From contig NZ_JAMOIH010000001.1 in NCBI RefSeq assembly GCF_024448955.1, positions 186,001 to 250,000 on the forward strand: a DNA stretch of 64,000 bases, read 5' to 3'. The DNA is from Stutzerimonas stutzeri. GTDB lineage: Bacteria > Pseudomonadota > Gammaproteobacteria > Pseudomonadales > Pseudomonadaceae. Made by a program: the position numbers and the translations under genes. This document shows, in pieces, positions 1 to 15,894 of this stretch. Below the pieces are notes generated by a model. The model was not told the DNA's origin. It did not search any database and saw nothing but the letters and a program-made list of their open reading frames with translations. Numbering within the stretch: the first letter of the stretch is position 1; every line of letters begins with the position of its first letter.

Positions 1-421
1 CAATCTCGTTCACCTGCGCCAGCCCGGTAATTCCCGGACGAACCTCAAACACCCCGCGCTTGGCACGCTCTTCAGTCAGTTCCTGCTGATTGAACAGCCC
101 CGGACGCGGCCCCACCAGGCTCATCTCGCCCTTCAGCACGTTCCACAGCTGAGGCAGCTCATCCAGTTTGGTCTTGCGCAGAAAATGACCAAAACGAGTA
201 ATGGACGCATTGCTGGCCAGATGTGTGGCAACCGAGGCCGTATCCACCCTCATGGTGCGGAACTTGACCAGGGTAAAGGGCTTCTGGTGACGCCCGACGC
301 GCACCTGCCGAAAGACTGGAGAGCCGGTATCGAACAGGCCGATGATCGTCAGCATCAATAGTATTGGCAAGCCGACTACCAAGCCCAACAGCGAAAAAAC
401 AAAATCGAAAACTCGAATCAC
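1..421 (-). CDS. Initiating sugar phosphate transferase (PglC/WcaJ-type), 3' part cut by window edge
   Basis: Bacterial sugar transferase that would load the first sugar phosphate onto undecaprenyl phosphate at the inner membrane, starting each O-unit. The protein begins M-I-R-V-F-D-F, has one hydrophobic segment (about residues 8-28), then the family blocks FRQVRVGR, KFRTM, DELPQLWNVLKGEMSLVGPRP and RPGITGLAQVN. It is the short form without the extra membrane helices of full-length WcaJ. The start is GTG; an overlapping ATG frame upstream stops after three codons. The C-terminus lies beyond base 1. It follows the 4-keto reductase by 19 bases. That pairing resembles the WreQ/WreU pair of Rhizobium, so QuiNAc-1-P is the inferred substrate. 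Confidence 0.88.
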   Translation of the reverse strand, partial: MIRVFDFVFSLLGLVVGLPILLMLTIIGLFDTGSPVFRQVRVGRHQKPFTLVKFRTMRVDTASVATHLASNASITRFGHFLRKTKLDELPQLWNVLKGEMSLVGPRPGLFNQQELTEERAKRGVFEVRPGITGLAQVNEI

Positions 422-440
422 GGTTTCATCCGGTAATAGT

Positions 441-1391
441 TCATGCGGAGCGCTCGAAGCAGCGTTTGAGCCCTTCTTCCACCGTGTAGGGTGGCTTCCA
501 ATCCAGCAGCTCGCAGGTCTTGCTGATATCCACTTGCAACGAACCGAGCAGCCGTTGTGCCATCGCTTTTTTGCCGAGCAATGTAGCACCAAACTGGAGC
601 ATGCAAGCAGGTACTGGAATCAACCGCGCGGGCTTACCCATTGCCGCTCCCAAGCCACGAAGCAACTCGGTAGTAGAAAGGTCCACGCCGTCGCTAGCCA
701 GCAGCACCTGATTGGCGGCAGCTGGATGATCGATACATCGGATAATTAGATCAACCAAATTGTCGATACTAACCAAGGAACGCTTATTGTGTATGGCACC
801 TAATGGGAGCGGAATACCTTGCTTGACCAGATTGATCATACTAGCGAAGTTGCCTTTTACATTTGGCCCGTAAACGAGCGGAGGGCGTATGATCACTACC
901 TCCATTCCCGTAGAAAGAGCGAGAGAGCTCAGAGCTCGCTCCGCTTTGCTCTTAGAAACCCCATATGGATCGGTAGGGGCTGGGCTATCACCCGCAGTAT
1001 AGCGTTCGCCAGGTTTGGTCCGTTCGCCATTAACCTTAATTGAGCTAAGAAAGATGAACCGTCGAGCTCCTGCCTCGGCAGCCTGTCGAGCCAAATTTAA
1101 GGTGCCCTCCAAGTTGACCGTTTCGAAATCGGGTAATGCTCCAGAGCCATGAGCGCCCAGCATAGGCGTTTGTGCGGCACAATGTACTACAACAGATACA
1201 TTAGCAAGTGATTCATAACGCTGCGAGTACCTCAAATCGCCAATATATATAGGGACAACCCCAGCTGGCAGATTATTGCTGACATCCCGAACGCCAGCTA
1301 GAACCTGAACGCCGGACGTTTCTAACAACTTACATAAGATCGCGTATCCTACAAAACCCGTTGCGCCAGTTACCAAAACTTTATATGTCAA
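441..1391 (-). CDS. NAD-dependent epimerase/dehydratase family, probable UDP-4-keto-sugar reductase (WreQ/WbpV-like)
   Basis: Extended short-chain dehydrogenase of 316 residues. It has a Rossmann motif TGATGFVG near residues 8-15, an SSIKV stretch at the catalytic Ser/Thr position and YGVSK (about 142-146) holding the catalytic Tyr and Lys. Relatives such as WbpV and WreQ reduce the 4-keto product of a WbpM-type dehydratase to UDP-QuiNAc or UDP-FucNAc; epimerase activity is the alternative. The start is TTG, preceded by AGGAGCGGAGC. It overlaps the upstream glycosyltransferase by 11 bases and sits just before the initiating transferase. The 4,6-dehydratase it would need is not in the window and is expected further left. 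Family is certain; substrate is inference. Confidence 0.85.
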   Translation of the reverse strand: MTYKVLVTGATGFVGYAILCKLLETSGVQVLAGVRDVSNNLPAGVVPIYIGDLRYSQRYESLANVSVVVHCAAQTPMLGAHGSGALPDFETVNLEGTLNLARQAAEAGARRFIFLSSIKVNGERTKPGERYTAGDSPAPTDPYGVSKSKAERALSSLALSTGMEVVIIRPPLVYGPNVKGNFASMINLVKQGIPLPLGAIHNKRSLVSIDNLVDLIIRCIDHPAAANQVLLASDGVDLSTTELLRGLGAAMGKPARLIPVPACMLQFGATLLGKKAMAQRLLGSLQVDISKTCELLDWKPPYTVEEGLKRCFERSA

Positions 1392-2529
1392 GCTCCGCTC
1401 CTAGCGTTCGATAAATATTCAAATGTTGCTGGACCACATTTTCGACAGTGAATTCACGCTCAGCAAGCTCGCGCGCGGCTCTTCCCATACGCTGGCGCAA
1501 CTGAGGATTTTCGACTAACTTCTGAATCGCGTCCGCCAACGCTTCAATATTATATACGGGCACAAGAAGGCCAGTTACACCAGCCTCGATAGCATCACGG
1601 CAACCGGGAACATCGGTTGTAACCACAGCGCGACCACAAGCAGCAGCTTCCATTAAGACTTTTGGCAGGCCTTCACGATAAGAAGGCAGTACTACAATGT
1701 GCGAATCTGCAAATATCTCTGCAATATCTGTACGGTAACCCAGACACTCGACTATACCTTCCTCCCGCCATTTTTCCAATTCACCGCCTTGAATACTGCT
1801 AGGATTACCAAGATCTATACTGCCCAAAAGCCTAAATCTCGCATTTACACCGCGAGCATGTAGCATACGCACAGCCGATACAAATTCGACCACACCTTTA
1901 TCACGCAACAATCGGCCCGCAAATACGACGGCAGGCTGACCATAACTCTCGGATTTGAAGCTATATTCAGCGAGATTGACACCTGAACCTTTTATTAGTA
2001 TCGCTTGCTTAAGAAAGACAACCCTAGATTTAACGAACTCAGCTAGATCGTCCGGATTCTGAAAAATAACACGCACATTTGGCTGACTTAAAGCTACTCG
2101 ATAAAGTAGCTTGACCAATTCTCTTAATATAGAATATTTAGCCTCTCTCGCAGTAAAAACGAAGCCCAGCCCTGAGACTGCGGCAACTACGCCTTTTATC
2201 GAACACACTCGAGCTACGATTCCTCCATACAATACGGGCTTTATAGTCACGAGATGCAAAATTGTGGGCTTTAGTTTTAGGCAAAGACGAAGTAAAGCTA
2301 TCAACGCAACCAGTTCACCAATGGGATGCACGCCACTTCTGGTGAATGGGAGCTTATGATGAGTAAACCCATAACGCTCTATTTTATCGGCAGAAGCTCC
2401 AGGCATAGTTGCGACATGTACGCTGTAACCCTCAGCGAGCGCCGCCTTTGCCAATGGCAGCCTGTGCGATAAAAAAAATAAAGGATCGTTAACGACCATC
2501 AAAAGGATCTGAGAACCATCTTTTGACAC
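1381..2529 (-). CDS. Glycosyltransferase family 4 (GT-B, PglA-like)
   Basis: Cytoplasmic GT-B glycosyltransferase of 382 residues, expected to add a sugar to the lipid-linked O-unit. The N-terminal half opens with a NDPLFFLSHR stretch typical of GT4 enzymes of the PglA/WbpH group. The C-terminal half has VFAGRLLRDKGV and the E-x7-E nucleotide-sugar motif in SYREGLPKVLMEAAACG. Start GTG with GGAGAGG five bases upstream; the GTG overlaps the wzy stop by one base (TAGTG), so translation is probably coupled. One of only two non-initiating glycosyltransferases in the locus. Donor and linkage cannot be read from sequence. Confidence 0.88.
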   Translation of the reverse strand: MSKDGSQILLMVVNDPLFFLSHRLPLAKAALAEGYSVHVATMPGASADKIERYGFTHHKLPFTRSGVHPIGELVALIALLRLCLKLKPTILHLVTIKPVLYGGIVARVCSIKGVVAAVSGLGFVFTAREAKYSILRELVKLLYRVALSQPNVRVIFQNPDDLAEFVKSRVVFLKQAILIKGSGVNLAEYSFKSESYGQPAVVFAGRLLRDKGVVEFVSAVRMLHARGVNARFRLLGSIDLGNPSSIQGGELEKWREEGIVECLGYRTDIAEIFADSHIVVLPSYREGLPKVLMEAAACGRAVVTTDVPGCRDAIEAGVTGLLVPVYNIEALADAIQKLVENPQLRQRMGRAARELAEREFTVENVVQQHLNIYRTLGAELDI

Positions 2530-3899
2530 TATAACCTCTCCATATTTACGCGCAGCTGCGTGAATAAAACCGATACGGTACGCTCAAACAAAAAAACAGT
2601 AAAAATAGCAAGGCCGCCTATTTTGAACATCTGAGACAACAAGTTTGCCACATCCGCTCGAATCACATATATGGAAACAGAAAAAGCAAACAGGTAAAAA
2701 ACTAAAAAATATTCAGACCTTAGCCGCAAACGATAACAAATTGAAATCATAAAAGCCGTGAGAGACATAACAGCGATCACGCCGCCAACACCTCCGACTA
2801 CATATCCTTCCGGGACTAGACCAAAGCCCCATCCGGTACGACCGCTAAACCCGTTCAATAATAAAAATTCTTTATTAAACCAAGTATTAGCACTAGAAAA
2901 CCAATCCTCCCCAAAAAACATCGATGGAATTACTGCTCTACCAATATCGGAGATTAATAGATACGGATTTCGCTCGGCTTCAAAATACAACACTGAATAA
3001 ATATTTCTAGATGCAGAAATGAACTCATTCGAAAAAATCTTATTCAAATCAAAATCAATACCGACAAACCCAGAAACCATAACAGCTTTAAAAGATTGAG
3101 AAACAGGCACCAAAAGAGCGATGCCAACAGCAAAGACTAATAATTTCAGTTTAGAAAAATTTCTCATTTTAAAATAATAAATTAACATCAGACACAACAT
3201 CAGCCTGAAAAAAATATCTCTTTCGCCAGTTAATGCCAAATAGAATATGCATACGAATATTACCAACAGGATTAGGGGGTCGCACTTAAGTCGATCCATG
3301 CTAAGCCGAACAGCCCTCAATAGAGCCACTATAGTCAACGTAAGCATTGAGAATTCACTTATGAATTTTTCAACGCCAGCACCATCGTTAATTTCTCGCT
3401 TCGATGTAAATCCAGAATTGAAAATTACAATACTGCAAATTAGCACTACCACAAGCAGAGCAGCGATCAGCAGCAATTCGCCAGATGAGCCAGGCCTTGT
3501 CGCCCTTCTAATCATCAACGAACTTTTCCCACTATTCTTTTGAACAAATAAGCCACAAACAAATATATAGGCAACCAATCCGATAAATGAATAAACCAGA
3601 CTAGAACTCAAAGCTAGACCGTCAATAGTCTTAAAAACGTTGTCCGCACCAACAAATACAGACAACGGGAACCACGTTTGATACATACAATAAAAAACTG
3701 GAAACACCACCCTTGGGTCTAATACATCCTCCCTGTTAAAGAAAAACAAAATGGCTATTACAAAATTGGCCCAAATGCTAACAACATAAAAAACCGCATC
3801 AACCAAACAATACATTAACAATAGCTGAACAAGGGAAACTGCTAGATAAAGTATATTTTTTGATGCATCGCTCAGAGCGGGCACGCTTAATCTAATCAT
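2529..3899 (-). CDS. wzy: O-antigen polymerase candidate (Wzy)
   Basis: Integral membrane protein of 456 residues with about ten to twelve hydrophobic segments and a larger polar stretch around residues 270-360, the layout of Wzy polymerases, which join O-units on the periplasmic face. It contains the LTGERDIFFRL stretch and an FGRTGWGFGLVPEGY-like loop (GFSGRTGWGFGLVPEGYVVG), Arg/Gly-rich as in periplasmic loops of this class. Sequence identity between Wzy proteins is poor, so the call rests on topology and on position in a locus that also has wzx and wzz. The gene is strikingly A+T-rich with many AAA/TTA codons compared with genes after 16 kb, which fits horizontal transfer. Confidence 0.8.
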   Translation of the reverse strand: MIRLSVPALSDASKNILYLAVSLVQLLLMYCLVDAVFYVVSIWANFVIAILFFFNREDVLDPRVVFPVFYCMYQTWFPLSVFVGADNVFKTIDGLALSSSLVYSFIGLVAYIFVCGLFVQKNSGKSSLMIRRATRPGSSGELLLIAALLVVVLICSIVIFNSGFTSKREINDGAGVEKFISEFSMLTLTIVALLRAVRLSMDRLKCDPLILLVIFVCIFYLALTGERDIFFRLMLCLMLIYYFKMRNFSKLKLLVFAVGIALLVPVSQSFKAVMVSGFVGIDFDLNKIFSNEFISASRNIYSVLYFEAERNPYLLISDIGRAVIPSMFFGEDWFSSANTWFNKEFLLLNGFSGRTGWGFGLVPEGYVVGGVGGVIAVMSLTAFMISICYRLRLRSEYFLVFYLFAFSVSIYVIRADVANLLSQMFKIGGLAIFTVFLFERTVSVLFTQLRVNMERL

Positions 3900-3917: not shown

Positions 3918-5081
3918 CTATCTTATTGCATTTACAACACCTAGTGCTATTAGGTAGATTTTCGAAGGTATTAGGCTGCGCATTAAATATAAAAAACTGG
4001 ACCGTGATAGAGTGGAATAAAATTCCATCAACTTTGAAGCACCAACGTCTACATCGAATTTTTTCGAAAAGCTATCTAACGCAAATTTCTGGAGGCTGTG
4101 CAAAGAATCAGAACTTCGGAGATAAGTTAGTAAATAGCTCGGATCCCGGTATGCGTCTAGCTCATGTGGAATAAGAACTCTGCTGGAAAAATTCTCTATC
4201 TCGGCATAACTAGACGTAAATTCATTGTAAAGACATGGGAATTTTTCGCCTTTGATAGAAAAAAGTACAATTTTACCTAGAGATAAGGCCTCCATTGCTC
4301 CTCTGCCAGAGCCTAAAACAACATCAAAGTAACCCAGGAGACGAGATGCGTTTTTTGTGGCTGCAGCCGTAATATAAAAATCTACATTTGGGGGTGCATT
4401 GTTTATAAGATGCTCATATATTTCCGCATCTTCTACGAAACCGATAACCTTTAGCTGGCAATCAAGTCCATTATCATTAAGAAAAGTTGTCAAATTCATC
4501 GCTTGAATTATACTTTCCTTATAGGCTTTTCCAATGCGACATATCCTTACAAATGAAAGTTTTTTCTTTTCGCCAAACAACCCATTCGCTCGGGCCTCAT
4601 CGTAACAAACCCTTGACACACGATTAGCGATCAGTTTTATCTCCGACCTTGGGAATTTCCTATTAAAATATGCATAATCGGCCTCATGAAAAACGACCAA
4701 ACTCGAGGTTCGAGGATAAAAAAACCTGGGCTTCCCTCCCCCACATTTTGTTAATACAAACGGGCACTTTAAAAAATAAGCGAGAATTTCACCCACATAT
4801 GCAACATTACTATCATAAGCATGGACGACTGTAACAGCCTCTTCAAAGCTATTAAGCAAAAATAATATTTTCTTAATAGCTGAAAATTGAAATATCAGAC
4901 CTGTTTCAATATGCACGTGACCAGCCACACCATCTAAGGCAGGAGGGGAATTTTGCCCGAGCGAGAAAATAGCGGATGCCTCGCTTCGATTGATCGCCTG
5001 AAACATTTCTCTTAACGAGTAGTAGTGCCCGCCATGACCAGTATTTGAACCTTTAAAGTTACCGATCAAATAAACAATCAT
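3918..5081 (-). CDS. Glycosyltransferase, GT-B type, unassigned donor
   Basis: A 387-residue protein with a GT-B look: a Gly-rich start (GNFKGSNTGHGGHYYSL), a central SFVRICRIGKAYKESIIQAM block resembling the start of a GT4 C-terminal domain, and GRGAMEALSLGKIV (about 257-270) at the place of the donor-binding Glu motif. It overlaps the murB-like stop by four bases (ATGA), so it is translationally linked to the murAB-like pair. I infer that it transfers the sugar those genes make, but this is context only. A+T-rich like its neighbours. No close named relative recognised. Confidence 0.75.
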   Translation of the reverse strand: MIVYLIGNFKGSNTGHGGHYYSLREMFQAINRSEASAIFSLGQNSPPALDGVAGHVHIETGLIFQFSAIKKILFLLNSFEEAVTVVHAYDSNVAYVGEILAYFLKCPFVLTKCGGGKPRFFYPRTSSLVVFHEADYAYFNRKFPRSEIKLIANRVSRVCYDEARANGLFGEKKKLSFVRICRIGKAYKESIIQAMNLTTFLNDNGLDCQLKVIGFVEDAEIYEHLINNAPPNVDFYITAAATKNASRLLGYFDVVLGSGRGAMEALSLGKIVLFSIKGEKFPCLYNEFTSSYAEIENFSSRVLIPHELDAYRDPSYLLTYLRSSDSLHSLQKFALDSFSKKFDVDVGASKLMEFYSTLSRSSFLYLMRSLIPSKIYLIALGVVNAIR

Positions 5082-6049
5082 TCAGAAAGCCATTTGAAAG
5101 CTTCATGAAGGGGCACAAACACCCCAAATTCGGTGCAATACTTGATTTCGGATTCCATTTTGTATTCAACTTCGGCTTCTACTTTATTTTTTATAAAACT
5201 TGCAAGCCTAATGACGTCTACAGCAGTAGCTTTATCTTTATTAATGATAAAATTAGCGTGCGTAGACGAAACAGTGGCCCCTCCGCATACAGTATCCTTA
5301 AGGCCTAAATTCTCAATAACTCGACCTGGCGCACCATATTTACTGTATTGTGTTTTGTCAGCTTTAAAAACTGATCCGCAATTTGGAAGCTTAATAGGGA
5401 ATTTTCGTCTTCTTTCGGCCAAAGTTGAAAGCATTCTCGCTCGAATTTTTCTTTTGGTATCAGTATTTATAGGCCTAAAAAAGGCACGGAGGACAATAAA
5501 CTCTCCAGATTGAAAACAAGAATGCCGGTAATCAAATTCGCAATCGGAAGGTTCAAGCCGATGTAACTTATTATCAGAGCCTAATGCAATTACATGGTCT
5601 AGAGTTTCGCTTATAGACTGCTGTTTACTACCTGCATTCATAACTACCCCACCTCCAACTGTACCAGGGATCCCAACAAGGTGTTCAAAGTCCGAACACC
5701 CTAAAGACAATCCCATCCTGGCAAGCCTGGGCATCCAACAACCGGCATCACAGCTGATAATTTTTTTTTCACTATCGTAATTTATACTAGATAAATTCTT
5801 GCCAAACTTAATTATTGCAGCGTTGATTTCCTTATCGGAAAATAGGATGTTCGACGTTGAGCCAACGATAGCGTACGGAATAGCTTCGGAGCGTAATAAA
5901 TCAACTACCCTTATTACTTCTTGCAGAGAGCTAGGTTCTATCACCAAGTCCGCTGAACCACCTATTTTCCATCTGGAAATTGTGGAAAGAGGGACATGCT
6001 CAGACACCGTTCCTTCAATCAGCTGCCGCAGCCGCATTACAGTAGTCAT
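5078..6049 (-). CDS. murB: MurB-like UDP-N-acetylenolpyruvoylglucosamine reductase, O-antigen paralogue
   Basis: FAD-dependent reductase family that turns UDP-GlcNAc-enolpyruvate into UDP-MurNAc. Visible: FAD-binding VGSTSNILFSD (about 63-73), GIPGTVGGGVVMNAGS (127-142), the YRHS arginine (about 175), the catalytic serine in CGSVFK (about 226) and a C-terminal SEIK glutamate (about 301). The compact length of 323 residues fits the shorter class of MurB. All key residues are kept, so it looks active. ATG at 6049 overlaps the murA-like stop (TGATG); GTG at 6052 is possible. Its place inside an A+T-rich O-antigen operon argues that it is an additional copy serving O-unit synthesis, not the cell-wall gene. 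Confidence 0.88.
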   Translation of the reverse strand: MTTVMRLRQLIEGTVSEHVPLSTISRWKIGGSADLVIEPSSLQEVIRVVDLLRSEAIPYAIVGSTSNILFSDKEINAAIIKFGKNLSSINYDSEKKIISCDAGCWMPRLARMGLSLGCSDFEHLVGIPGTVGGGVVMNAGSKQQSISETLDHVIALGSDNKLHRLEPSDCEFDYRHSCFQSGEFIVLRAFFRPINTDTKRKIRARMLSTLAERRRKFPIKLPNCGSVFKADKTQYSKYGAPGRVIENLGLKDTVCGGATVSSTHANFIINKDKATAVDVIRLASFIKNKVEAEVEYKMESEIKYCTEFGVFVPLHEAFKWLSE

Positions 6050-7299
6050 CACTCATACCTTACGGTGGCGTTAAGCCGAAGTAGCTTTTCCACAAACCTG
6101 TCATATCCGCGCTCAATTTGCCAAGCATCGCTGATTTCCGTGACACCACTAGCGGTGAGGCCGCATAAACTTAAGGCTGCTCCTGCTCTTAAATCTGTAG
6201 CCTTTACTTTTGCGCCAGAGAGTTGATCACCACTTCCATGAATTTTTAAAGCATTGCCAACAATTTCATATGCGAGACCCATCTTTGCCATTTCGACCAC
6301 ATAACCGTATCTACCCGCAAAACGTAAGTCTACGATCGTAGATTGACCTTTAGCGCAAGCAGCAAAAGCAGCGAAAATTGGCTGGACGTCGGAATTGATG
6401 CCTGGATGAGGCCCGGTACTAATTTCTAAGGGATAAGGGCATCCACCCCTCACAATTACGCTATTAGACTCAACGTATAGCTTTACTCCGCTTTCCTTTA
6501 AATGAATAAGAGCCACTTCGAGATCCTTTGCTGGAAAATTTCTGATCTCAACATCCCCACGAGTTATGACTGCACCTACCAACCAAGTAATAGCCTCCAT
6601 ATTGTCAGGCATTACAGTATGCGTCACTCCTCGCAGCCTCTCGACTCCTACAACCTCTATACGCTCTTGGCCGTACACCCTTATCAGTGCTCCCATCTTA
6701 TTGAGCACATTAACCATATCAATAATTTCGGGACGAATGTGTGGGTTCCAGATGGTGGTTTTCCCAGACGCAAGTGTTCCTGCTATGATGGCATTTTCCG
6801 TTGCCCCGGTAGACCTTATAACTAAATGTATATCTGCCCCTATCAAACCTTTTTTTGGCGCTTGGGCATATAGGTAGTCATCGTCCTCCCAAACTGTCGC
6901 GCCAAGTTCTTGCAGAACATGCACATGGAGGTCGTAAGCTCTGTCACCTAACTTGCAGCCGCCGGGCAATGGAACTTTACCGTAACCGAAGCGCGCAACT
7001 AGCGCGCCAAGAATCAGCAGTGTGTTTCTAATAGAGCGGTCCGTCCATATAAGCTCATTCGCTAAAATAGAGTTTTCCTTAATCCGTACAGTATCTTCTA
7101 CCACCACACATTCTTTGCCTAGGATACGCAGCATTTGTAGATGAATTTCTGCGTCCGACAAAGTTCCTGGAAAATTCTCTAACTCAACCAAATCCTCGGT
7201 TAATATTGAACAAGTAAGGAGTTTCAATACACTATTCTTTGCGCCACTAACATTCACCACACCTTCTAACTTCGATGTCTCAATAAATAGTTTTTCCAC
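6049..7299 (-). CDS. murA: MurA-like UDP-GlcNAc 1-carboxyvinyltransferase (enolpyruvyl transferase), O-antigen paralogue
   Basis: EPSP-synthase superfamily enzyme adding enolpyruvate from PEP to O3 of UDP-GlcNAc. The K-N pair in SGAKNS (about 21-22), the catalytic loop PGGCKLGDR with Cys115 and Arg120 numbering as in E. coli MurA, the aspartate of NSDVQPI and the late arginine of IERGYDR are all present, so activity is expected. The Cys (not Asp) predicts fosfomycin sensitivity. Start chosen at GTG 7299 because AAAGGTG lies six bases upstream; GTG 7308 has no ribosome site. Followed directly by the murB-like gene. Housekeeping murA in pseudomonads normally sits elsewhere, so a second copy is inferred. 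Confidence 0.88.
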   Translation of the reverse strand: MEKLFIETSKLEGVVNVSGAKNSVLKLLTCSILTEDLVELENFPGTLSDAEIHLQMLRILGKECVVVEDTVRIKENSILANELIWTDRSIRNTLLILGALVARFGYGKVPLPGGCKLGDRAYDLHVHVLQELGATVWEDDDYLYAQAPKKGLIGADIHLVIRSTGATENAIIAGTLASGKTTIWNPHIRPEIIDMVNVLNKMGALIRVYGQERIEVVGVERLRGVTHTVMPDNMEAITWLVGAVITRGDVEIRNFPAKDLEVALIHLKESGVKLYVESNSVIVRGGCPYPLEISTGPHPGINSDVQPIFAAFAACAKGQSTIVDLRFAGRYGYVVEMAKMGLAYEIVGNALKIHGSGDQLSGAKVKATDLRAGAALSLCGLTASGVTEISDAWQIERGYDRFVEKLLRLNATVRYE

Positions 7300-7310
7300 G
7301 ACGCCCACCT

Positions 7311-8585
7311 TTAGCTATAAAGTTTAATTTTTCGTTTCATAAAAACAATTACAAAAACTAGAAACATGCCATAGTGAATGGATATCCCAACGGCATACAA
7401 GATTATAGCCCCATACATATCAAGGCCCGCAAGATACGCAGTTAATAAACTTGCACATACCATTAGAAATCTAGTCAAATTGATTTTGAGAAACCTTGAT
7501 TGCTCTTCATAAACATTATAAATATGGACCAGCGGATTTACCACCAATTGCAAACCCATATAAACAGATAATATTGAGGCTATTCCGCCCGCTTGCTTCC
7601 ACTGAGAGCCGAAAATCAAGCCAAATATATCCGGACCAAAATTAAATAAAATAATCATCGGAAAAACAGACAGCAAAGAGAGCTTCATAACCATGTCTTT
7701 GCTTAAATCATATATTTCTTGACTTCTGCTAGATCCCAATCGAGCTATTTCAGAATAAAAGGCTTGCGATAACGATTGAGAAACCAACGCAATTGGGGTA
7801 CCTAAAGCTAGCATGGTCAAAGAAAACTGGCCGGCATCAGATATGCCGTATAGTGATCCTATAAAAACAATAGGGGCTTGTGACGATAGTATAAGTAAAA
7901 CCTGAGCAGGCATTCGATAACATGGATAGCTTGAGTTGCTTTTTGCCGCGCGAATCGCATTCGAAACTCTGACCTTTTCGAAAAACCCTTTCTCTTTCCA
8001 TTTATAGAATAAATATAATAGAGCACTTAAGTAACCGACCAGCACCCCTACCACGAGCCCAAATACTTTAGCTCCCGCAATCAACGCTATCAATAATTTT
8101 GACGTTTCTCCAAATAGCGCACCGATGAAAGATGATACCGACACAGCCCTGAAAGCTCTATTTCTAACGCCCCAAGAACTTAATACTTCTATATAGCTGG
8201 CGCCCACTATAAACAAATATACTAACAACAATATCGGTAAAGCATTTAAATCATACTCATCTAACTTACCAGATATTTTTGCTGCGACCAGTAATCCGGC
8301 GCTAGCGAATAAACCAAGAAACAATGTCGAGCACACCGAAAACATTAAAAGATTTTTCGCTTCATTGTCGTCTTGTAAAACAGGAAACGCGGCAGGATAG
8401 CGCAAGTTACAGAAAGGGGCTGCAATTAACGCTGCCGAAGATATTAATGATAAAAAACCGAAATCTAAGGGATTGTAGATTCTTGTAAGAACCGGAATAA
8501 AAAAAAGCATTACAATCTTTGCCGATCCAACACCAGCAGAGAGTAAAAGCATATTCTTTAGCATTCTCTTCTTAGGATTGCTCAT
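7311..8585 (-). CDS. wzx: O-unit flippase (Wzx), MATE/MVF-fold polysaccharide exporter
   Basis: Polytopic membrane protein (424 residues from this start) with about twelve hydrophobic segments, starting MSNPKKRMLKNMLLLSAGVGS, a positively charged N-terminus followed at once by helix 1, as in Wzx proteins. Wzx moves the undecaprenyl-linked O-unit to the periplasm. An in-frame ATG at 8615 begins immediately after the wbpP stop; a longer reading to 8687 would overlap wbpP by 71 bases and is unlikely. Ends 11 bases before the murA-like start, so same transcript. A+T-rich. Flippase family is clear; substrate not readable. Confidence 0.86.
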   Translation of the reverse strand: MSNPKKRMLKNMLLLSAGVGSAKIVMLFFIPVLTRIYNPLDFGFLSLISSAALIAAPFCNLRYPAAFPVLQDDNEAKNLLMFSVCSTLFLGLFASAGLLVAAKISGKLDEYDLNALPILLLVYLFIVGASYIEVLSSWGVRNRAFRAVSVSSFIGALFGETSKLLIALIAGAKVFGLVVGVLVGYLSALLYLFYKWKEKGFFEKVRVSNAIRAAKSNSSYPCYRMPAQVLLILSSQAPIVFIGSLYGISDAGQFSLTMLALGTPIALVSQSLSQAFYSEIARLGSSRSQEIYDLSKDMVMKLSLLSVFPMIILFNFGPDIFGLIFGSQWKQAGGIASILSVYMGLQLVVNPLVHIYNVYEEQSRFLKINLTRFLMVCASLLTAYLAGLDMYGAIILYAVGISIHYGMFLVFVIVFMKRKIKLYS

Positions 8586-8616
8586 TCTCTTATGCCCACT
8601 CGACGTAAGGATCATA

Positions 8617-9642
8617 TCAACTAAGAAGGCGTATATACCATTGCATCGCGCTTTCAACACCACTATAGATATCAAATTTTGGCTCATACCCTAATAAACA
8701 CCGAGCCTTATTGATATCAGCTTGTGAATGACGTACGTCGCCAGCGCGAAACTCACGATAGACTGGTTCCTTGGCGTAACCAACTCCATTCCGAATCAGA
8801 TTTTTTTTCAGAACGGCAAATAACTGATTAAGATTAGTACGCCCATTAACTGCAACATTATAAACTTGATTGCGGGCGGCTTCGTTCGTCTCGGTTGCGG
8901 CCAGTAAATTAGCTTGTACGGTGTTTTCAATGAAGCAAAAGTCGCGACTGGTTTCACCGTCTCCGTTGATAAAGACATCACTGCCCTCTATCATCGCAGC
9001 AATCCACTTTGGGATCACTGCTGCGTAGGCCCCATTCGGATCTTGCCGCTTTCCAAAGACATTAAAATAACGCAGCCCAATGGTGTTAAATTCGTAGGTC
9101 CTAGCGAATACTTCAGCGTAGAGTTCGTTGACGTATTTGGTCACAGCATAGGGAGACAGTGGCTTCCCGATCACGTCTTCAACTTTGGGCAATCCCGGAT
9201 GATCACCATAGGTAGAGCTACTCGCGGCGTAGGTGAAGCTTTTCACCTGAGCGTCGCGAGCGGCCACCAACATATTAAGGAAGCCATCAATATTGGTGCT
9301 GTTGGTAGTAATTGGGTCATTGATCGATCGCGGTACGGAACCAAGGGCAGCTTGATGCAGAACATAGTCCACGCCTGCGCACCCCCTATGGCAATCGTCT
9401 AGGTTCCGGATATCACCCTCATTGAATCTAAATCGCGCCCATTGCTCCGCACTCACCAAACTTTTAACTTCATCCAGATTGCGCTGGTGGCCTGTGGCGA
9501 AATTATCCAGCCCAACTACGTGTTGATTTAGCCGGAGCAACGTTTCTAATAAGTTGGAGCCGATAAACCCTGCCACGCCGGTTATTAACCAAGTTTTAGG
9601 CTTTAGAGGCAGTTCTTGCAGCAAGAATTCGTAGCGAGTCAT
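8617..9642 (-). CDS. wbpP: UDP-N-acetylglucosamine 4-epimerase (WbpP family)
   Basis: Extended SDR enzyme of 341 residues, matching the size of WbpP of P. aeruginosa O6, which interconverts UDP-GlcNAc and UDP-GalNAc. Rossmann TGVAGFIGS (21-29), catalytic AASSSTYGD (about 139-147) and SPYAVTKY with Tyr165/Lys169 are present, as is the [20 protein letters not shown] substrate-binding run (key part [12 protein letters not shown]). The roughly 15-residue N-terminal extension before the Rossmann fold is also a WbpP trait. Together with wbpO it supplies UDP-GalNAcA. Less A+T-rich than the genes downstream, hinting that wbpO-wbpP belong to the more conserved rim of the locus. Confidence 0.93.
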
Positions 9643-9741: not shown

Positions 9742-11019
9742 TTATAAGCGCAGGTCGGACTCTTCAGCGCTCAGCAAATACTTTAGATCGTATAGTACGT
9801 GTTCAGCCTTGCCGTACCGACGTATATTGTCAGCGCCCAAATCTCGGAATTCATTATGTGCTACAGCGAGCACGACACCGTCGTACGCGTCGATTGCCGG
9901 TTCAGCTATTGGCGTGATTCCGTATTCATACTTGGCTTCCGTGCCACTGACCCAAGGGTCATATACGTCAACCGCAATGTTGTATTCACCCAATTCGCTG
10001 ATGATGTCCACTACCCGCGTGTTACGTAGGTCTGGACAATTTTCTTTGAACGCCAGCCCTAGTACGAGCACTCGTGCGCCGTCGACGTGGATTCGACGTT
10101 TCAGCATAGCTTTGACCAGCTGCGACACAACGTACGCGCCCATGCCATCGTTAAGGCGGCGACCAGCAAGAATAATTTCCGGATGGTAACCGATACTTTG
10201 GGCTTTATGAGTCAAATAGTAAGGGTCTACCCCGATGCAGTGACCGCCGACCAAGCCTGGGCGAAACGGCAGGAAGTTCCATTTGGTTCCTGCAGCCTGG
10301 AGTACTGCCTCGGTATCAATACCCATCCTATTGAAGATAATTGCAAGCTCATTGATCAAGGCGATATTTAGATCGCGCTGGGTATTCTCAATGACCTTAG
10401 CGGCCTCAGCGACCTTGATACTAGTAGCCTTGTGGGTCCCGGCCGTGATGATCTGGTTGTACAGATCATCGACCAGATCGGCGACTTCGGGAGTAGAGCC
10501 AGAGGTAACCTTCTTGATGGTGGTGACCCGGTGCTCTTTGTCGCCTGGGTTGATGCGCTCTGGACTGTAGCCGGCAAAGAAGTCAACGTTGAACTGCAGG
10601 CCAGACACTTTTTCCAAGACTGGTACGCAGTCTTCCTCGGTAGCTCCTGGATATACCGTGGATTCGTAGATGACAATATCGCCCTTCTTCAATACTTTGC
10701 CGATACTCTCGGAAGCCTTGATTAACGGGGTGAGATCGGGCTGCTTATGCTCGTCAATAGGCGTCGGAACAGTGACAACAAATACGTTGCAATCTTTTAG
10801 ATCGTCGAGTTTAGCTGTGTAGGTGAGGCTCTCAGCTTGCCTGAGTTCAACATCGCTGACTTCGAGGGTGGCATCGTGGCCTGCCTGTAAAGCCTCGATA
10901 CGCGTGTTATTGATATCGAACCCGACTACGGCACGATGCTTTCCAAATTCAACGGCAAGCGGCAATCCGACATAGCCCAAGCCGATAATGGCGAGTTTTA
11001 CTTCATGCAAGCTAATCAT
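9742..11019 (-). CDS. wbpO: UDP-N-acetyl-D-galactosamine (GlcNAc/GalNAc) 6-dehydrogenase, WbpO/TviB family
   Basis: NAD-dependent nucleotide-sugar dehydrogenase of 425 residues that oxidises C6 twice to give a uronic acid. N-terminal Rossmann [10 protein letters not shown] (about 13-22), central helix with [16 protein letters not shown], and [12 protein letters not shown] near residue 270 carrying the catalytic cysteine; C-terminal domain with [15 protein letters not shown]. Close in type to WbpO of P. aeruginosa O6 and TviB of the Vi antigen, which act on UDP-GalNAc or UDP-GlcNAc. With wbpP next to it the predicted product is UDP-GalNAcA. Confidence 0.92.
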
Positions 11020-11103: not shown

Positions 11104-12594
11104 TCAGGCAGTGATGTGCACTGCCTCACCCTTATATGCATATTGAGTGGACAGCTGAGCAGACAGCTCTCGCTTCGCGCCCTCCTCCCCATGCACCATT
11201 CTTATCTCTGTCGGCCACTGCTGCATGCCGGTCACAAATTCCACCAACCCTTTCTGATCCGCATGAGCAGAGTAGCCACCGATACTGGTGATACCAGCAC
11301 GGATATCGATGCGCTCGCCGTCGAGGTCAACGTAGCCGCCCTTCGGACCATAGGTTTGGATCGCGTGCCCTGGTGTGCCCTTGGCCTGATAGCCGACGAA
11401 CAATGCGTTGTGTCTTTTATCGCCCAGCATGGCCTTGAGGTAATTGACGATACGGCCGCCGCTGCACATGCCGCCACCGGCTATCACGATAGCTGGGCGT
11501 GCGGTCTGAGTCAGGTGGTTGACGATGCGTTGGTGGTCGCTGTGGCTGTCTATCGTGATCAATTGTTCGAAGGCCAGCGGGCGGCGGCCGGACTGGATAC
11601 GGTCGCGGGCTTCCTGATTCCAGAAGGGTTTTAGGCTTCGATAGGTCTCGGTGAAGCGGCTCGCGAGTGGCGAATCGAGGATGACCGGGAGTTCGGGCCA
11701 GTTGGGTTCGGTGTTGGGCCTGGCATCGGTGTTGTTCGCCGCCCCCCTCACCCCAGCCCTCTCCCCAGGGGGGAGAGGGGGTTGTGCGGTGTTGGGGCGG
11801 GCCGTGTTGATGATCTCTTCAAGCTCATAGAGCAATTCTTGGGTGCGGCCGATGCTGAATGCGGGAATGAGAACGGTGCCTTGGTCTTCGAGGGCTTGCT
11901 CGATGACGGCTTCGAGCCGCTTACGGCGGTTGGCTCGGTCTTCGTGGAGGCGGTCGCCGTAGGTGCTTTCCAGCACTAGGATGTCGGCGCGCTCCGGTGA
12001 TTCGGGTGGCATCAGGAAAGGTGCGTGCGGCGCGCCGAGGTCGCCGGAGAAGACTACGCGCTTGCTCTGCCCGGTTTGCGGGTAAGTCAGGTCGATTTCA
12101 ACGTAGGCCGATCCGAGGATATGCCCAGCACGCTGCAGCCGTATGCGGGCTTGCAGCTCGTCGGTGTTAGCCAGGGTGAACCACTGCTGGTACGGCAGTG
12201 CAATGATCCGCTGCCCGACGAGCCGGATGTATTTTTCGATCTGAGCCTGGTCACGGCTGAAGCCCAGTTTGAAGGCATCTTCCAGGACGATGGGCAGAAG
12301 CTTTGCCGACGGCTCGCTGCACAAGATGGGGCCGTCGAAGCCTGCCGCGAGAAGATAGGGGATGCGCCCAACATGGTCGATGTGCACATGAGTGGCGACC
12401 AGCGCTTTTATGGTGTCCAGTGGGAATTCGATGGCGAGCCGATCCGCGCCGGGCTCGCTCGGGATCGATGCGTCGTTGCCCTGGAACAGCCCGCAGTCAA
12501 CCAACAGGCTGCTGGTGGCATTCATATGCAGTTGGTGACAGGAGCCGGTAACGCCGTCCTTGGCGCCGTGATGTTCTATTTTTGGATAGCTCAT
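11104..12594 (-). CDS. MBL-fold beta-CASP ribonuclease/hydrolase (Ysh1/CPSF73-like)
   Basis: Metallo-beta-lactamase protein of about 496 residues with zinc ligands in THVHIDHVGRIP, the histidine of RAGHILGSAY and aspartate of SGDLG, then a beta-CASP domain and a terminal RMM block (IGGYSAHADQKGLVEF). Such enzymes process RNA. Start ATG 12594 has AAAGGA upstream. The same gene often sits beside wzz in pseudomonad O-antigen loci, so its place is not surprising. Oddity: residues about 262-295 carry a foreign-looking insert with the peptide PLPPGERAGVRG, encoded by a repetitive palindrome (11743-11782) and flanked by two ARPNT copies; see findings. The reading frame remains open across it. Confidence 0.9.
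   Translation of the reverse strand: MSYPKIEHHGAKDGVTGSCHQLHMNATSSLLVDCGLFQGNDASIPSEPGADRLAIEFPLDTIKALVATHVHIDHVGRIPYLLAAGFDGPILCSEPSAKLLPIVLEDAFKLGFSRDQAQIEKYIRLVGQRIIALPYQQWFTLANTDELQARIRLQRAGHILGSAYVEIDLTYPQTGQSKRVVFSGDLGAPHAPFLMPPESPERADILVLESTYGDRLHEDRANRRKRLEAVIEQALEDQGTVLIPAFSIGRTQELLYELEEIINTARPNTAQPPLPPGERAGVRGAANNTDARPNTEPNWPELPVILDSPLASRFTETYRSLKPFWNQEARDRIQSGRRPLAFEQLITIDSHSDHQRIVNHLTQTARPAIVIAGGGMCSGGRIVNYLKAMLGDKRHNALFVGYQAKGTPGHAIQTYGPKGGYVDLDGERIDIRAGITSIGGYSAHADQKGLVEFVTGMQQWPTEIRMVHGEEGAKRELSAQLSTQYAYKGEAVHITA
11743..11782. repeat. C/G-rich palindromic repeat inside the beta-CASP gene
   Basis: CCCTCTCCCC, two bases, then GGGGGAGAGGGG form a near-perfect hairpin preceded by CCCCCTCACCCCAG. 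This is the dispersed proteobacterial repeat whose translation gives PLPPGERAGVRG. It is in frame within 11104-12594 and flanked by imperfect direct repeats starting GTGTTGGG at 11711 and 11789. Confidence 0.8.
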
Positions 12595-12725
12595 GGTTAT
12601 TCCTTTAACGATGTCACCCAAGATGCCCGCGACAAACTAGTCACGGGCCCGCTGAAAAAATAAGCGGGGATTCTACCGAGTTTCAGAACTGCTGAGTTGC
12701 CAGCAGCATTCCGACGGACGGATGG

Positions 12726-14006
12726 TCAGATCGCAACGACCGGACGGCGCAGGTTTCGCACCAATGCGATGAACAACCCGAGCATGCCGCCAAGCACCAA
12801 AGCGAGCGCGACGATCAACGCCTTCTTGGGCTTGATCGGGCGGCTTGGCTCAACTGCGCTCTGGTCGACGGAGACCAGCTTGAGCGATTCGGTATCGAAT
12901 TGCAGGGCACGCAGGCGTGCGGCCTCCTCGCGCCAGGCGGCGAGGTTTTTCAGGAACAGGTCCTCGTTTTCACGGCTGTTGAGCACTTCGATTTGGCGGT
13001 TGTGCTCGAGCAGCTTGAGCTCACGGGCAATCTGCGCAATGCGCGGCTCGGTGAAGTCATCCGAGCGACGAGCCAACAGTGCTTTACGCTCAGCCTCCAG
13101 CGCATCGCTGCCCATGAAGTAGAGCGGTATTTGCTGGTTGTTAACTTCAGTGCGGATTACGCTGCCCTGCCCCGTGATTTCTGCGGCGCCAAGCGATGAA
13201 GGTGTTGTGGGCTTGCTGATACCCAGCGAGGTTGCGATGCGGATCGCTTCGTTAAGTTGGTTGATGCGGTTGTCGCGGCGGGTTTTCAGCTGCTGACGCA
13301 ACGCAGAAAGTTCGTCGTTCAGTTCTGCACGCTTGAGGGCGTCCGCTTCGCTCAGTTTGGCGATTTTGATTTCTTTAGTGGCCTCGTAGTTCTCACGAGC
13401 AGCTGCCATGTTCTTCTCTAGCTGGCTGAGCCGGTTGCTGATAAGCGTGTCTAGATCAGCTGCGATTTGCTGACGTACATTATTCAGTGAGTACTGCACG
13501 AGCCCGTTAACGATCTGAACGCCGTTGAGGTCTTGCGGGTAGGTCAGCTCTATGCCGACGAAGGGAGTGGTTCCTTCGGGCTTTTTGGCGTCAGGCTGTA
13601 ACAGCTTGATCGCGTCGTCATTAAAGGCTTCGAACGTTTGCTCTAGGCTGCGGCCGGGCTGGGCCAGGTCAGCGAAGAGTTGCTGATTGTCACGAAAGAA
13701 ACCGAGGCGGTTCTCATAGGAATCAAGCGCAGCGCCAACTTGAGCCAATGCCTGCTTCGGTGACAGTTTGTAGATGCCCAGATGGTTGAGTTCATCCAGA
13801 TCTTTGATCGCCGCCGGGCGCAGTACGCTTTGAACCGTGTAATAGCGCATTGCGAGCATGGCGTAGGCAAGCCCAATGAGGCCAGCCAGGAAGGTCACTG
13901 CGATGATCAGCGTTTTTTGCTTCCACAACGCGCTGACGAGCTGGACCAGATCAATCTCATCATGGGTAGCAGAATGAAGGTGTTGCGGAGGGACTGCAGC
14001 GTTCAC
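12726..14006 (-). CDS. wzz: O-antigen chain length determinant Wzz (copy 1)
   Basis: Polysaccharide co-polymerase of 426 residues: DEIDLVQLVSALWKQK before transmembrane segment 1 (about 33-53), a long periplasmic coiled-coil-rich region, and a second membrane segment near 395-417 preceded by the Pro-rich SRPIKPKKA motif. Wzz sets modal O-chain length together with Wzy. GTG start. Closely related over its whole length to the second copy at 14617-15894, so the pair arose by duplication or both were kept to give two chain-length modes. Lies 131 bases upstream of the beta-CASP gene. Confidence 0.93.
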   Translation of the reverse strand: MNAAVPPQHLHSATHDEIDLVQLVSALWKQKTLIIAVTFLAGLIGLAYAMLAMRYYTVQSVLRPAAIKDLDELNHLGIYKLSPKQALAQVGAALDSYENRLGFFRDNQQLFADLAQPGRSLEQTFEAFNDDAIKLLQPDAKKPEGTTPFVGIELTYPQDLNGVQIVNGLVQYSLNNVRQQIAADLDTLISNRLSQLEKNMAAARENYEATKEIKIAKLSEADALKRAELNDELSALRQQLKTRRDNRINQLNEAIRIATSLGISKPTTPSSLGAAEITGQGSVIRTEVNNQQIPLYFMGSDALEAERKALLARRSDDFTEPRIAQIARELKLLEHNRQIEVLNSRENEDLFLKNLAAWREEAARLRALQFDTESLKLVSVDQSAVEPSRPIKPKKALIVALALVLGGMLGLFIALVRNLRRPVVAI

Positions 14007-14616: not shown

Positions 14617-15894
14617 TCAGCGCAGGATGGGATGCTGTTCGTTATTACGCGTCATCAGGCTGCGCACTAACGCAACAAACACGCCCAGCATTCCACCAAG
14701 CACAAAGCCTAATGCCAGAATCATTGCTTTTTTGGGTTTAATCGGCTTAAGAGATTGCAGAGCGAGCTGATCCAATCGCACCAGTTTCAGCCTTTCGGTA
14801 TCCAGTTTGATGCCTTTCAGGCGGGCGGCTTCTTCACGTAGCTCGGCGAGATTAGTCAGATAAAGATCTTCCCCCTCTCGCTCCTTCAGAATCTCGACTT
14901 CCCGATTGTGCTCAAGCATCGCCAGCTCCGACTGAATTTCAGCGATACGGGGCTCTATGAAGTCATCTGAAGTTCGGGCGGAAAGCGCATCGCGCTCGGC
15001 GGTTAGCGCCTCGGTACCCATGAAGTACAGTGGCGCTTTCTGATTGGTAACCTCGGTGCGAATGACCTGAGTACCACTAGGAGGTGACGCTGTCATGGCT
15101 GATGGGCTTGTTGGGGTACGAATCCCAAGTGATTCGGCAATTGTGATCGCCTCGTTAAGCTCTTGAATACGGTTCATTCGACGGGTCTTGAGCTCGACAC
15201 GTAACGCTGTGAGCTCATCCTGTAATTCGGCGCGCTTCAAGGCATCCTCTTCCAGCAGCGCTGCGATCTTCGCCTCCTTGGTGGCCGAATAGCTTGCGCG
15301 CTGAGCCTCCATGTTCATATCCAGACTGGCCAAGCGGTTTTTGATCAGGCTTTCAAGGTCTTCCGCGATTTCGCGACGCTCAAGCTCCAGTACATGCGCG
15401 ACGAAGCCATTGACCACCGCAGCGCCATCCATTCCTTTAGGGTAGGTCAGCCTAAGCCCGACGAAAGCGCTTCGGTTGTCCGTGTGCTTGGGATCAGGAA
15501 AGAGCATTTCGAACGCGTTTTCATTGAAATCGGCAAATGCCTGCTCAAGCGAGTCGCCACGCTTCTCAATCTGCTGGAAAAGCTCTTGGTTATTCAGAAA
15601 GAAGTCGAGCCGGTTGTCATAGGATGAAAGCGCACCGGCTATTCTGTTGATGGCCTCTTCCGGGGTGAGCTTGTAGATGCCGGTCTCGTTAAGTTGATCC
15701 AGACTGCTCTGTGGGACAGGGCGTAGATAAGTTCTGGTCTGGTAGTAAGGAGTCGCAAGGAAAGCGTAAGCGGCTGCGATAAGCGTAACGACCGCCGCTA
15801 TACCGAGAATCAGGAGTTTCTGACGCCAAAGCGCCCGAAACAGCTCAACCAGGTCTATCTCTTCGGCTGTGGAGGTCTGGTACTGCACGTTCAT
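14617..15894 (-). CDS. wzz: O-antigen chain length determinant Wzz (copy 2)
   Basis: 425 residues with the same plan as the gene at 12726: EEIDLVELFRALWRQK, transmembrane segment 1 (about 32-52), periplasmic helical region, LKPIKPKKAMILALGFVLGG with the second transmembrane helix (about 390-412). Good ribosome site AAGGAG seven bases before ATG. First wzz after ihfB, matching the ihfB-wzz order at the O-antigen locus of other pseudomonads. Two full-length paralogues in tandem suggest two modal lengths; which one pairs with this Wzy is unknown. Confidence 0.93.
   Translation of the reverse strand: MNVQYQTSTAEEIDLVELFRALWRQKLLILGIAAVVTLIAAAYAFLATPYYQTRTYLRPVPQSSLDQLNETGIYKLTPEEAINRIAGALSSYDNRLDFFLNNQELFQQIEKRGDSLEQAFADFNENAFEMLFPDPKHTDNRSAFVGLRLTYPKGMDGAAVVNGFVAHVLELERREIAEDLESLIKNRLASLDMNMEAQRASYSATKEAKIAALLEEDALKRAELQDELTALRVELKTRRMNRIQELNEAITIAESLGIRTPTSPSAMTASPPSGTQVIRTEVTNQKAPLYFMGTEALTAERDALSARTSDDFIEPRIAEIQSELAMLEHNREVEILKEREGEDLYLTNLAELREEAARLKGIKLDTERLKLVRLDQLALQSLKPIKPKKAMILALGFVLGGMLGVFVALVRSLMTRNNEQHPILR

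Follow-up and report, generated by a model that had tools for sequence, protein, structure and literature searches.

The closest known relatives of the proteins discussed here are MurA and MurB, which catalyse the two initial reactions in peptidoglycan precursor synthesis, and NikO, which acts on uridine monophosphate (UMP). The accessible part of a 2019 review on pyruvate-containing glycoconjugates describes both MurA and NikO as enolpyruvyl transferases (PMC6801904). On the product side, N-acetylmuramic acid (MurNAc) is reported, in the part available of PMC4515632, as a component of the lipooligosaccharide (LOS) of Psychrobacter arcticus; the same text names the O-polysaccharides of Yersinia ruckeri and Proteus penneri as further sources and cites the capsule of Vibrio vulnificus. 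Here we describe a murA-like and a murB-like gene in the O-antigen locus of Stutzerimonas stutzeri (assembly GCF_024448955.1, contig NZ_JAMOIH010000001.1, positions 186,001 to 250,000; this stretch of 64,000 nucleotides is called the window). Their products were named sMurA and sMurB in order to avoid confusion with MurA2 of Gram-positive bacteria. Judged from the genes and their relatives, the pair is likely a dedicated surface-glycan cassette that would supply a lactyl-ether sugar, activated by uridine diphosphate (UDP), for the O-unit.

The gene pair and the housekeeping enzymes

A preliminary description had presented the two genes as complete and overlapping, had placed them between wzx and a glycosyltransferase gene in A+T-rich DNA, and had reported the catalytic residues of both enzymes as kept; in the points checked, all of this could be confirmed. 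Both genes are read from the reverse strand in intact frames, sMurB (a MurB-like reductase) at 5078..6052 with 324 amino acids and sMurA (a MurA-like enolpyruvyl transferase) at 6049..7299, and they overlap by 4 nucleotides such that the murB start lies on the murA stop. The murA-like open reading frame extends to a GTG at 7308 (6049-7308, 419 amino acids counted from there); of the two candidate starts, the GTG at 7299 is the preferred, putative one, the AGGTG being better placed before it. A wzx-like gene (7311-8687) lies upstream and the glycosyltransferase gene (3918-5081) downstream, and the GC content is 37-49% across 2-10 kb of the window versus 59-63% at 16-22 kb.

sMurA matches Pfam EPSP_synthase at 236.6 bits and lies above the subfamily model NF006873 (386.1 bits, cut-off 297) and under the murA equivalog TIGR01072 (367.6 bits, cut-off 392.7). 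Its AlphaFold2 model has a predicted local distance difference test score (pLDDT) of 90.9, and its first 43 matches in the PDB are all MurA, with template modelling (TM) scores up to 0.93. sMurB contains the Pfam domains FAD_binding_4 and MurB_C, lies above the NCBIfam cut-offs of TIGR00179 (209.5 versus 144.5) and NF010480 (273.1 versus 259), and is of the short type II form. In E. coli numbering, which is used throughout, K22, N23, C115, R120, D305, R331, D369, R371 and R397 are all present in sMurA of the window, and these nine residues are kept across 37 sMurA sequences, apart from one sequence whose alignment has a gap at K22/N23. Likewise, R159, S229 and E325 of sMurB are kept in all 30 sequences counted, the window included.

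The genome itself (4.35 Mb in 33 contigs, 99.99% complete) contains three matches to the 5-enolpyruvylshikimate 3-phosphate synthase (EPSP) fold and two to MurB_C. The housekeeping murA resides on contig C16, adjoins hisG and a BolA gene and scores 590.6 bits against TIGR01072; the housekeeping murB, of type I (442.3 bits against NF000755), resides on contig C4 next to genes of a low-molecular-weight phosphatase and a cytidylyltransferase. The third EPSP-fold protein, on contig C5, does not match the window MurA at 1e-60 and is taken to be a putative AroA. With ordinary murA and murB genes present elsewhere, the window pair is therefore an extra set, as had been supposed, and the possibility that it represents the cell-wall pair of this organism is ruled out. 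The window MurA and the housekeeping MurA of the same genome share 38% identity. Of 56 genomes of the genus, 54 have a MurA match at E <= 1e-60, and only this genome has two; the other 53 have one each, 37-39% identical to the window MurA, which rules out a recent duplication within the genus. No other genome matched the window MurA at E <= 1e-85 in the order (390 genomes) and class (369), or at 1e-90 in the phylum (398); these overlapping samples each include the genome itself.

Distribution, trees and gene context of sMurA and sMurB

Scanning 84,980 species genomes with short exact patterns, an approach that picks up close relatives only, returned 30 loci with relatives at 58-68% identity to the window MurA. 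This separate, rare family stands closer to sMurA (58-68% identity) than the housekeeping MurA does (38%), and sMurA is not a recent copy. The carriers include Thioalkalivibrio, Marinobacter, Thermomonas, many Sphingomonas, Rhizobium, Mesorhizobium, Caulobacter, Verrucomicrobia, the archaeon Methanosarcina spelaei, and others. How thinly the family is spread is illustrated by the family of one Sphingomonas carrier, where 5 of 298 genomes, that carrier included, hold sMurA. Among the 30 of 66 plasmid records listed, seven encode relatives at 59-63% identity and the rest reach at most 39.5%. A phage origin is not supported: 41 phage records matched, all below 60% identity, the best among 15 listed being 38.3%, and of the stretches in IMG/VR, 15 matched a pattern with none encoding a relative.

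Both proteins fall into groups of their own. In the sMurA tree, 33 sMurA are separated from 18 housekeeping MurA, 14 of which come from carrier genomes, by a branch of length 2.66 (support 99/100), with the caution that one housekeeping branch (L061) and the outgroup branch are long; in the sMurB tree, 30 sMurB stand opposite 17 housekeeping MurB (support 100/98), where the program flagged L101, L094 and the window sequence itself. The truncated L046 was omitted from the sMurA tree and from the residue counts, L061 from the MurA residue counts only and the fragment L101 from the MurB residue counts only, while L083, whose MurA is identical to that of L048, was omitted from the sMurB tree. The view of the pair as a second set is also supported by the grouping of its proteins with relatives from other polysaccharide loci, apart from the housekeeping enzymes. 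Housekeeping genes were searched for in 18 of the 30 carrier genomes: sMurA lies below the TIGR01072 cut-off in all 18, and 14 also hold a MurA above it; the four lacking such a MurA comprise the archaeon and three metagenome-assembled genomes.

The two genes occur together. In a set of 38 loci, some of them near-duplicates and some truncated at contig ends, sMurB accompanies sMurA in 35, with a gap of at most 35 nucleotides in 32 of the 35 pairs; the order is A-then-B in 18 and B-then-A in 17, the gaps and overlaps being approximate as frames were begun at the first start codon. After removal of seven near-duplicates from 33 pairs, the pairwise distances of sMurA and sMurB correlate with r 0.91 (26 pairs, 0 of 5000 permutations), and with r 0.894 (15 pairs, 0 of 5000) when the Sphingomonas-Caulobacter block is left out. 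From the scattered spread, the linked inheritance and the plasmid copies we infer transfer of the pair as a putative horizontally mobile cassette. Between sMurA and sMurB of Thioalkalivibrio (L019:5925-6293), a frame of 122 amino acids shows weak similarity to enolpyruvyl transferases in their C-terminal part, scoring 22.7 bits against the window MurA and 36.7 bits against the E. coli enzyme.

All 34 loci examined hold one or more polysaccharide markers; genes for glycosyltransferases, flippases, export, sugar nucleotides or acyltransferases were counted as such. The weakest contexts are those of L020 and L046, with a glycosyltransferase only, and of L081, with a GT2 glycosyltransferase and an acyltransferase. 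At E <= 1e-15, 11 of the 38 loci encode a glycosyltransferase of a family here called c6, represented in the window by 3918-5081, and 11 others encode an unrelated GT2 enzyme, with no overlap between the two sets; either enzyme is a candidate for the lactyl-sugar transferase. Proteins of L019 and L020 were dropped as c6 members after alignment (15 and 19% identity). A CysE/EpsC-like acyltransferase is found in 10 of the 38 loci and is absent from the window, and a UDP-sugar dehydrogenase occurs in 16, window and archaea included, 15 of which also have an epimerase-like gene. Of the 16 loci of the Sphingomonas-Caulobacter type (L024-L043) in which murB precedes murA, 15 contain a gene for an ABC exporter resembling the one in L031, L030 being the exception; in L031, HlyD-like and Wzz/kinase proteins follow, an export setting unlike Wzx/Wzy.

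The archaeal carriers deserve separate mention. In the family of M. spelaei, the Methanosarcinaceae, sMurA at 60-63% identity occurs in 5 of 111 genomes, and the c6 glycosyltransferase is present in exactly these five. All five carry a single block with genes for a dehydrogenase, an epimerase, sMurA, sMurB, a flippase, the c6 glycosyltransferase, a protein of about 600 amino acids and two GT4 enzymes. The blocks (L047:3466-16941; L120-L123) are conserved, with a GC content of 32-33%; the protein of about 600 amino acids has no Pfam match, and an acyltransferase is found in three of the five. Contamination of the first archaeal record is ruled out by the four further genomes of the family and by the location of the locus on contigs above 4.5 Mb (4.5-4.9 Mb in four of the five). 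No match to murC at E <= 1e-10 was found in any of the five archaeal carriers, whereas the genome of the window does have one; hence the pair cannot serve ordinary peptidoglycan in these archaea. The bacterial carriers do hold peptidoglycan genes. A 9 kb contig in the Methanosarcinaceae set (L124, G1256:C167) holds an ordinary murA (37%) together with murC; it is probably bacterial contamination and was left out of the sMurA count.

Substrate pocket, O-antigen locus and proposed function

The pocket of 37 sMurA, including that of the window, was compared with 17 housekeeping MurAs at positions that are constant or nearly so in the latter. Replaced in all 37 are V161R, V163T, A186H, R232N, F302I, T304S, V/I327R, H334Y, Y393W and H394Q, and in 35 of 37 E188R and P303N, while D123 (36 of 37), L124 (35), H125 (37), S162 and D305 are kept. 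D123, L124 and H125 are the residues which we take to be the uridine-side contacts; the contact positions 91, 120-124, 160-163, 305 and 327 are likewise assumed, except where papers gave partial lists. In the accessible parts of the literature, Arg91 and Val163 are assigned to the diphosphate pocket of MurA and Asp305 to the glucosamine pocket (PMC10500568), a docking study counts Val327 to the active site and Glu188, Arg232 and Val163 among the contacts of the native ligand (PMC11628175), and N233 of MurB is listed with the diphosphate contacts (PMC12844806). N233 is Ser in 29 of 30 sMurB, Y125 is Gln in 25 of 30 and Lys in the window, and G126 is changed as well. The concerted replacements in sMurA and sMurB suggest that the substrate is close, and not surely identical, to UDP-N-acetylglucosamine (UDP-GlcNAc); another acceptor sugar is therefore possible.

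The surrounding genes, all on the reverse strand, form a Wzx/Wzy set of initiating transferase, flippase, polymerase and chain-length regulator. The initiating sugar-phosphate transferase (Bac_transf) occupies 1..592, with a reading frame that continues outside the window to L006:9864 and a true start probably nearer 440; next after it, outside the window, lies a WbpM-like 4,6-dehydratase (L006:7731-9743). By its position near the WbpM-like gene, the short-chain dehydrogenase/reductase at 441..1391 (Pfam Epimerase) is likely a 4-reductase giving UDP-N-acetylquinovosamine or UDP-N-acetylfucosamine (QuiNAc/FucNAc). A GT4-type glycosyltransferase (1381..2529; Pfam Glycos_transf_1) and the Wzy O-unit polymerase (2529..3899; TIGR04370 at 49.1 bits, cut-off 40) follow. 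The c6 enzyme at 3918..5081, the candidate lactyl-sugar transferase, matches no Pfam or NCBIfam family; its AlphaFold2 model (pLDDT 87.8) matches GT-B enzymes of the MshA/BshA type in the PDB at a TM score of about 0.6, and homologues are present in 10 further sMurA loci. The Wzx-like flippase (7311..8687), with no direct Pfam or NCBIfam family match, is recognised through relatives only, namely proteins of L019, L021, L023 and L027 (140-203 bits), three of which pass Pfam Polysacc_synt_3. Beyond it lie a TviC-like UDP-N-acetylglucosaminuronic acid 4-epimerase (8617..9642; NF011728 at 532.3 bits, under the cut-off of 760), the UDP-GlcNAc 6-dehydrogenase TviB (9742..11019; NF011729 at 698.4 bits, cut-off 592) and two Wzz-like chain-length regulators (12726-14006 and 14617-15894; Pfam Wzz). 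A metallo-beta-lactamase/beta-CASP/RMMBL protein is encoded at 11104-12621, between the wzz genes and tviB.

From these genes we infer the reactions, the acceptor sugar, the transferase and the final O-unit as follows. The acceptor of sMurA would be UDP-GlcNAc or a closely related UDP-sugar, one hydroxyl of which would receive the enolpyruvyl group of phosphoenolpyruvate (PEP); sMurB would then reduce the product to the lactyl ether, in parallel to MurA and MurB in the peptidoglycan route. The activated lactyl sugar would then enter the O-unit, probably through the GT-B enzyme at 3918-5081, and the O-unit would be flipped by Wzx, polymerised by Wzy and put on lipopolysaccharide (LPS). In this scheme the initiating, c6 and GT4 transferases would match three activated sugars, of QuiNAc/FucNAc type, of N-acetylhexosaminuronic acid type and the lactyl sugar.

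As to the identity of that sugar, the preliminary description had proposed UDP-MurNAc; the catalytic core agrees with this, and the pocket, changed in every sMurA compared and in sMurB, leaves room for another acceptor sugar. Exactly UDP-MurNAc would mean a private supply apart from the peptidoglycan pool and MurNAc in the O-unit, a reading we consider to fall somewhat short of an even chance. It draws on the retention of every catalytic and PEP-binding residue and of the presumed uridine-side contacts in nearly all sequences. It also draws on MurNAc in surface glycans of Y. ruckeri, P. penneri and P. arcticus, as far as the accessible text goes (PMC4515632), and on L081, where the lack of an annotated sugar-nucleotide gene nearby fits a common acceptor like UDP-GlcNAc. 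Against it stands the group-wide nature of the pocket replacements, together with the redundancy: UDP-MurNAc is already supplied by the housekeeping enzymes, and an O-unit with MurNAc could strictly do without a second pair. The pair may instead act on a different UDP-sugar, for instance UDP-N-acetylgalactosamine, a UDP-hexuronic acid like the TviB/TviC product, or UDP-glucose, so that the lactyl sugar would not be MurNAc; we hold this, too, to be quite possible, and the two products are about equally likely. Along these lines, both pockets changed jointly across the group, positive charge was added to that of sMurA (R161, R327, H186, and loss of E188), and dehydrogenase and epimerase-like genes are frequent neighbours. 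Conversely, some of the charge changes resemble swaps (K160/R161, R232/R188), and the dehydrogenase types differ (TviB in the window, a UDP-glucose type in Sphingomonas L031) where the pocket is uniform; moreover, no dehydrogenase was seen in 22 of 38 loci, whose flanks are often cut, and the figure of 16 of 38 stands without a background rate for glycan loci.

Readings without a role in the surface glycan fare much worse. Many bacteria carry two MurAs, and by fold and chemistry the pair could be a back-up or drug-resistant set for the cell wall that lies by chance within the O-antigen locus. This is very improbable in view of Cys115, the fosfomycin target, which is kept in 37 of 37 sMurA, of the separate tree groups, and of the occurrence beside polysaccharide genes in archaeal genomes devoid of a murC match. 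That the pair is a passenger or a decaying copy with no function in the O-unit would suit its rare, strain-specific occurrence and the long branch of the window sMurB; we give it hardly any credence, as the frames are intact and overlapping, the catalytic residues are kept and the pairing is conserved across phyla. Several observations do weigh against the surface-glycan cassette as proposed here. The window sMurB has the longest sMurB branch (1.93), is 32-41% identical to the others and has Ala at the N233 position, so that it has possibly drifted. In three Verrucomicrobia loci (L037, L044, L045), sMurA occurs with no sMurB nearby; the enolpyruvyl ether might stay unreduced there, or a different reductase might act on it. 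The Qingshengfaniella plasmid locus (L081:12419-16220) has acyltransferase, sMurA, sMurB and GT2 genes among osmolyte (betaine, proline) genes and no annotated Wzx/Wzy nearby; consequently, some copies of the pair may serve something other than a Wzy polymer, and the product of this locus may not be an O-antigen. The redundancy with the housekeeping supply and the pocket changes count in the same direction where UDP-MurNAc is taken as the exact product.

The further idea that the LPS imitates peptidoglycan is not supported: no recognised gene of the locus would add peptides, and among the carriers of the pair are archaea whose genomes gave no match to murC. A dedicated surface-glycan cassette would provide a sequence marker for predicting lactyl-ether sugars, which are known in several O-antigens and capsules. 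It would also mean that the two opening reactions of the peptidoglycan route were removed from the wall and moved as a cassette, apparently even into archaea. More tentatively, the pair may represent a third kind of pathway for enolpyruvyl transfer based on the MurA fold. This would be a mobile cassette whose pocket has been remodelled and whose product is a lactyl-ether UDP-sugar other than UDP-MurNAc; it would be common to Pseudomonadota and Methanosarcinaceae, Verrucomicrobiota having only sMurA, such that some archaea would display muramic-acid-like sugars without peptidoglycan. To our knowledge, archaea are taught to lack muramic acid. Both a lactyl sugar on these archaeal surfaces and the requirements of the MurA pocket for accepting another sugar are now testable, and since Cys115 is kept in sMurA, fosfomycin might also block the surface-glycan step.

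Comparison with known enzymes and glycans

In the literature searched, where subscription journals are little covered and texts were in part accessible, nothing on point was found on MurA/MurB or lactyl sugars in O-antigen loci or in Methanosarcina, nor was a dedicated two-enzyme cassette common to bacteria and archaea. By its title, given among the references of PMC5643014, a paper by Senchenkova from 2006 reportedly concerns glucolactilic acid in Shigella boydii O17 and two O-antigen genes said to make this lactyl-ether sugar, and may be related. The main texts of three Y. ruckeri genome papers (PMC5320707, PMC5552943, PMC10174560) contain no instance of murA, carboxyvinyltransferase, or muramic/muramate, and two further papers, in their accessible parts, deal with pyruvate acetals or other sugars, not with lactyl ethers (PMC11766843, PMC8657804).

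Compared with the O-antigens and LOS that contain MurNAc, the proposed end product is alike, a lactyl-ether hexosamine on the cell surface; as MurNAc has already been found in such glycans, according to the accessible texts, this product would not be new. The MurNAc glycans are, however, known there as chemical structures. With MurA (EC 2.5.1.7), sMurA shares the fold as well as Cys115, Lys22, Asn23, Arg120, Asp305, Arg331 and Arg397; it differs in its low identity to the housekeeping enzyme of the same cell, its score under TIGR01072, its own tree group, its changed pocket and its place in an O-antigen locus. sMurB resembles the short type II form of MurB (EC 1.3.1.98) in its domains, in R159, S229 and E325 and in its matches to TIGR00179 and NF010480, and is set apart by its own tree group, the replacement of N233 by Ser or Ala and the changes at Y125 and G126; the organism's own cell-wall MurB, in contrast, is of type I (NF000755). 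Like NikO, as the latter appears in the part of the review available, sMurA is a relative of MurA that would be employed outside the cell wall; unlike NikO, it stands nearer to MurA (best score 273.2 bits, versus 113.9 for NikO) and is paired with a MurB.

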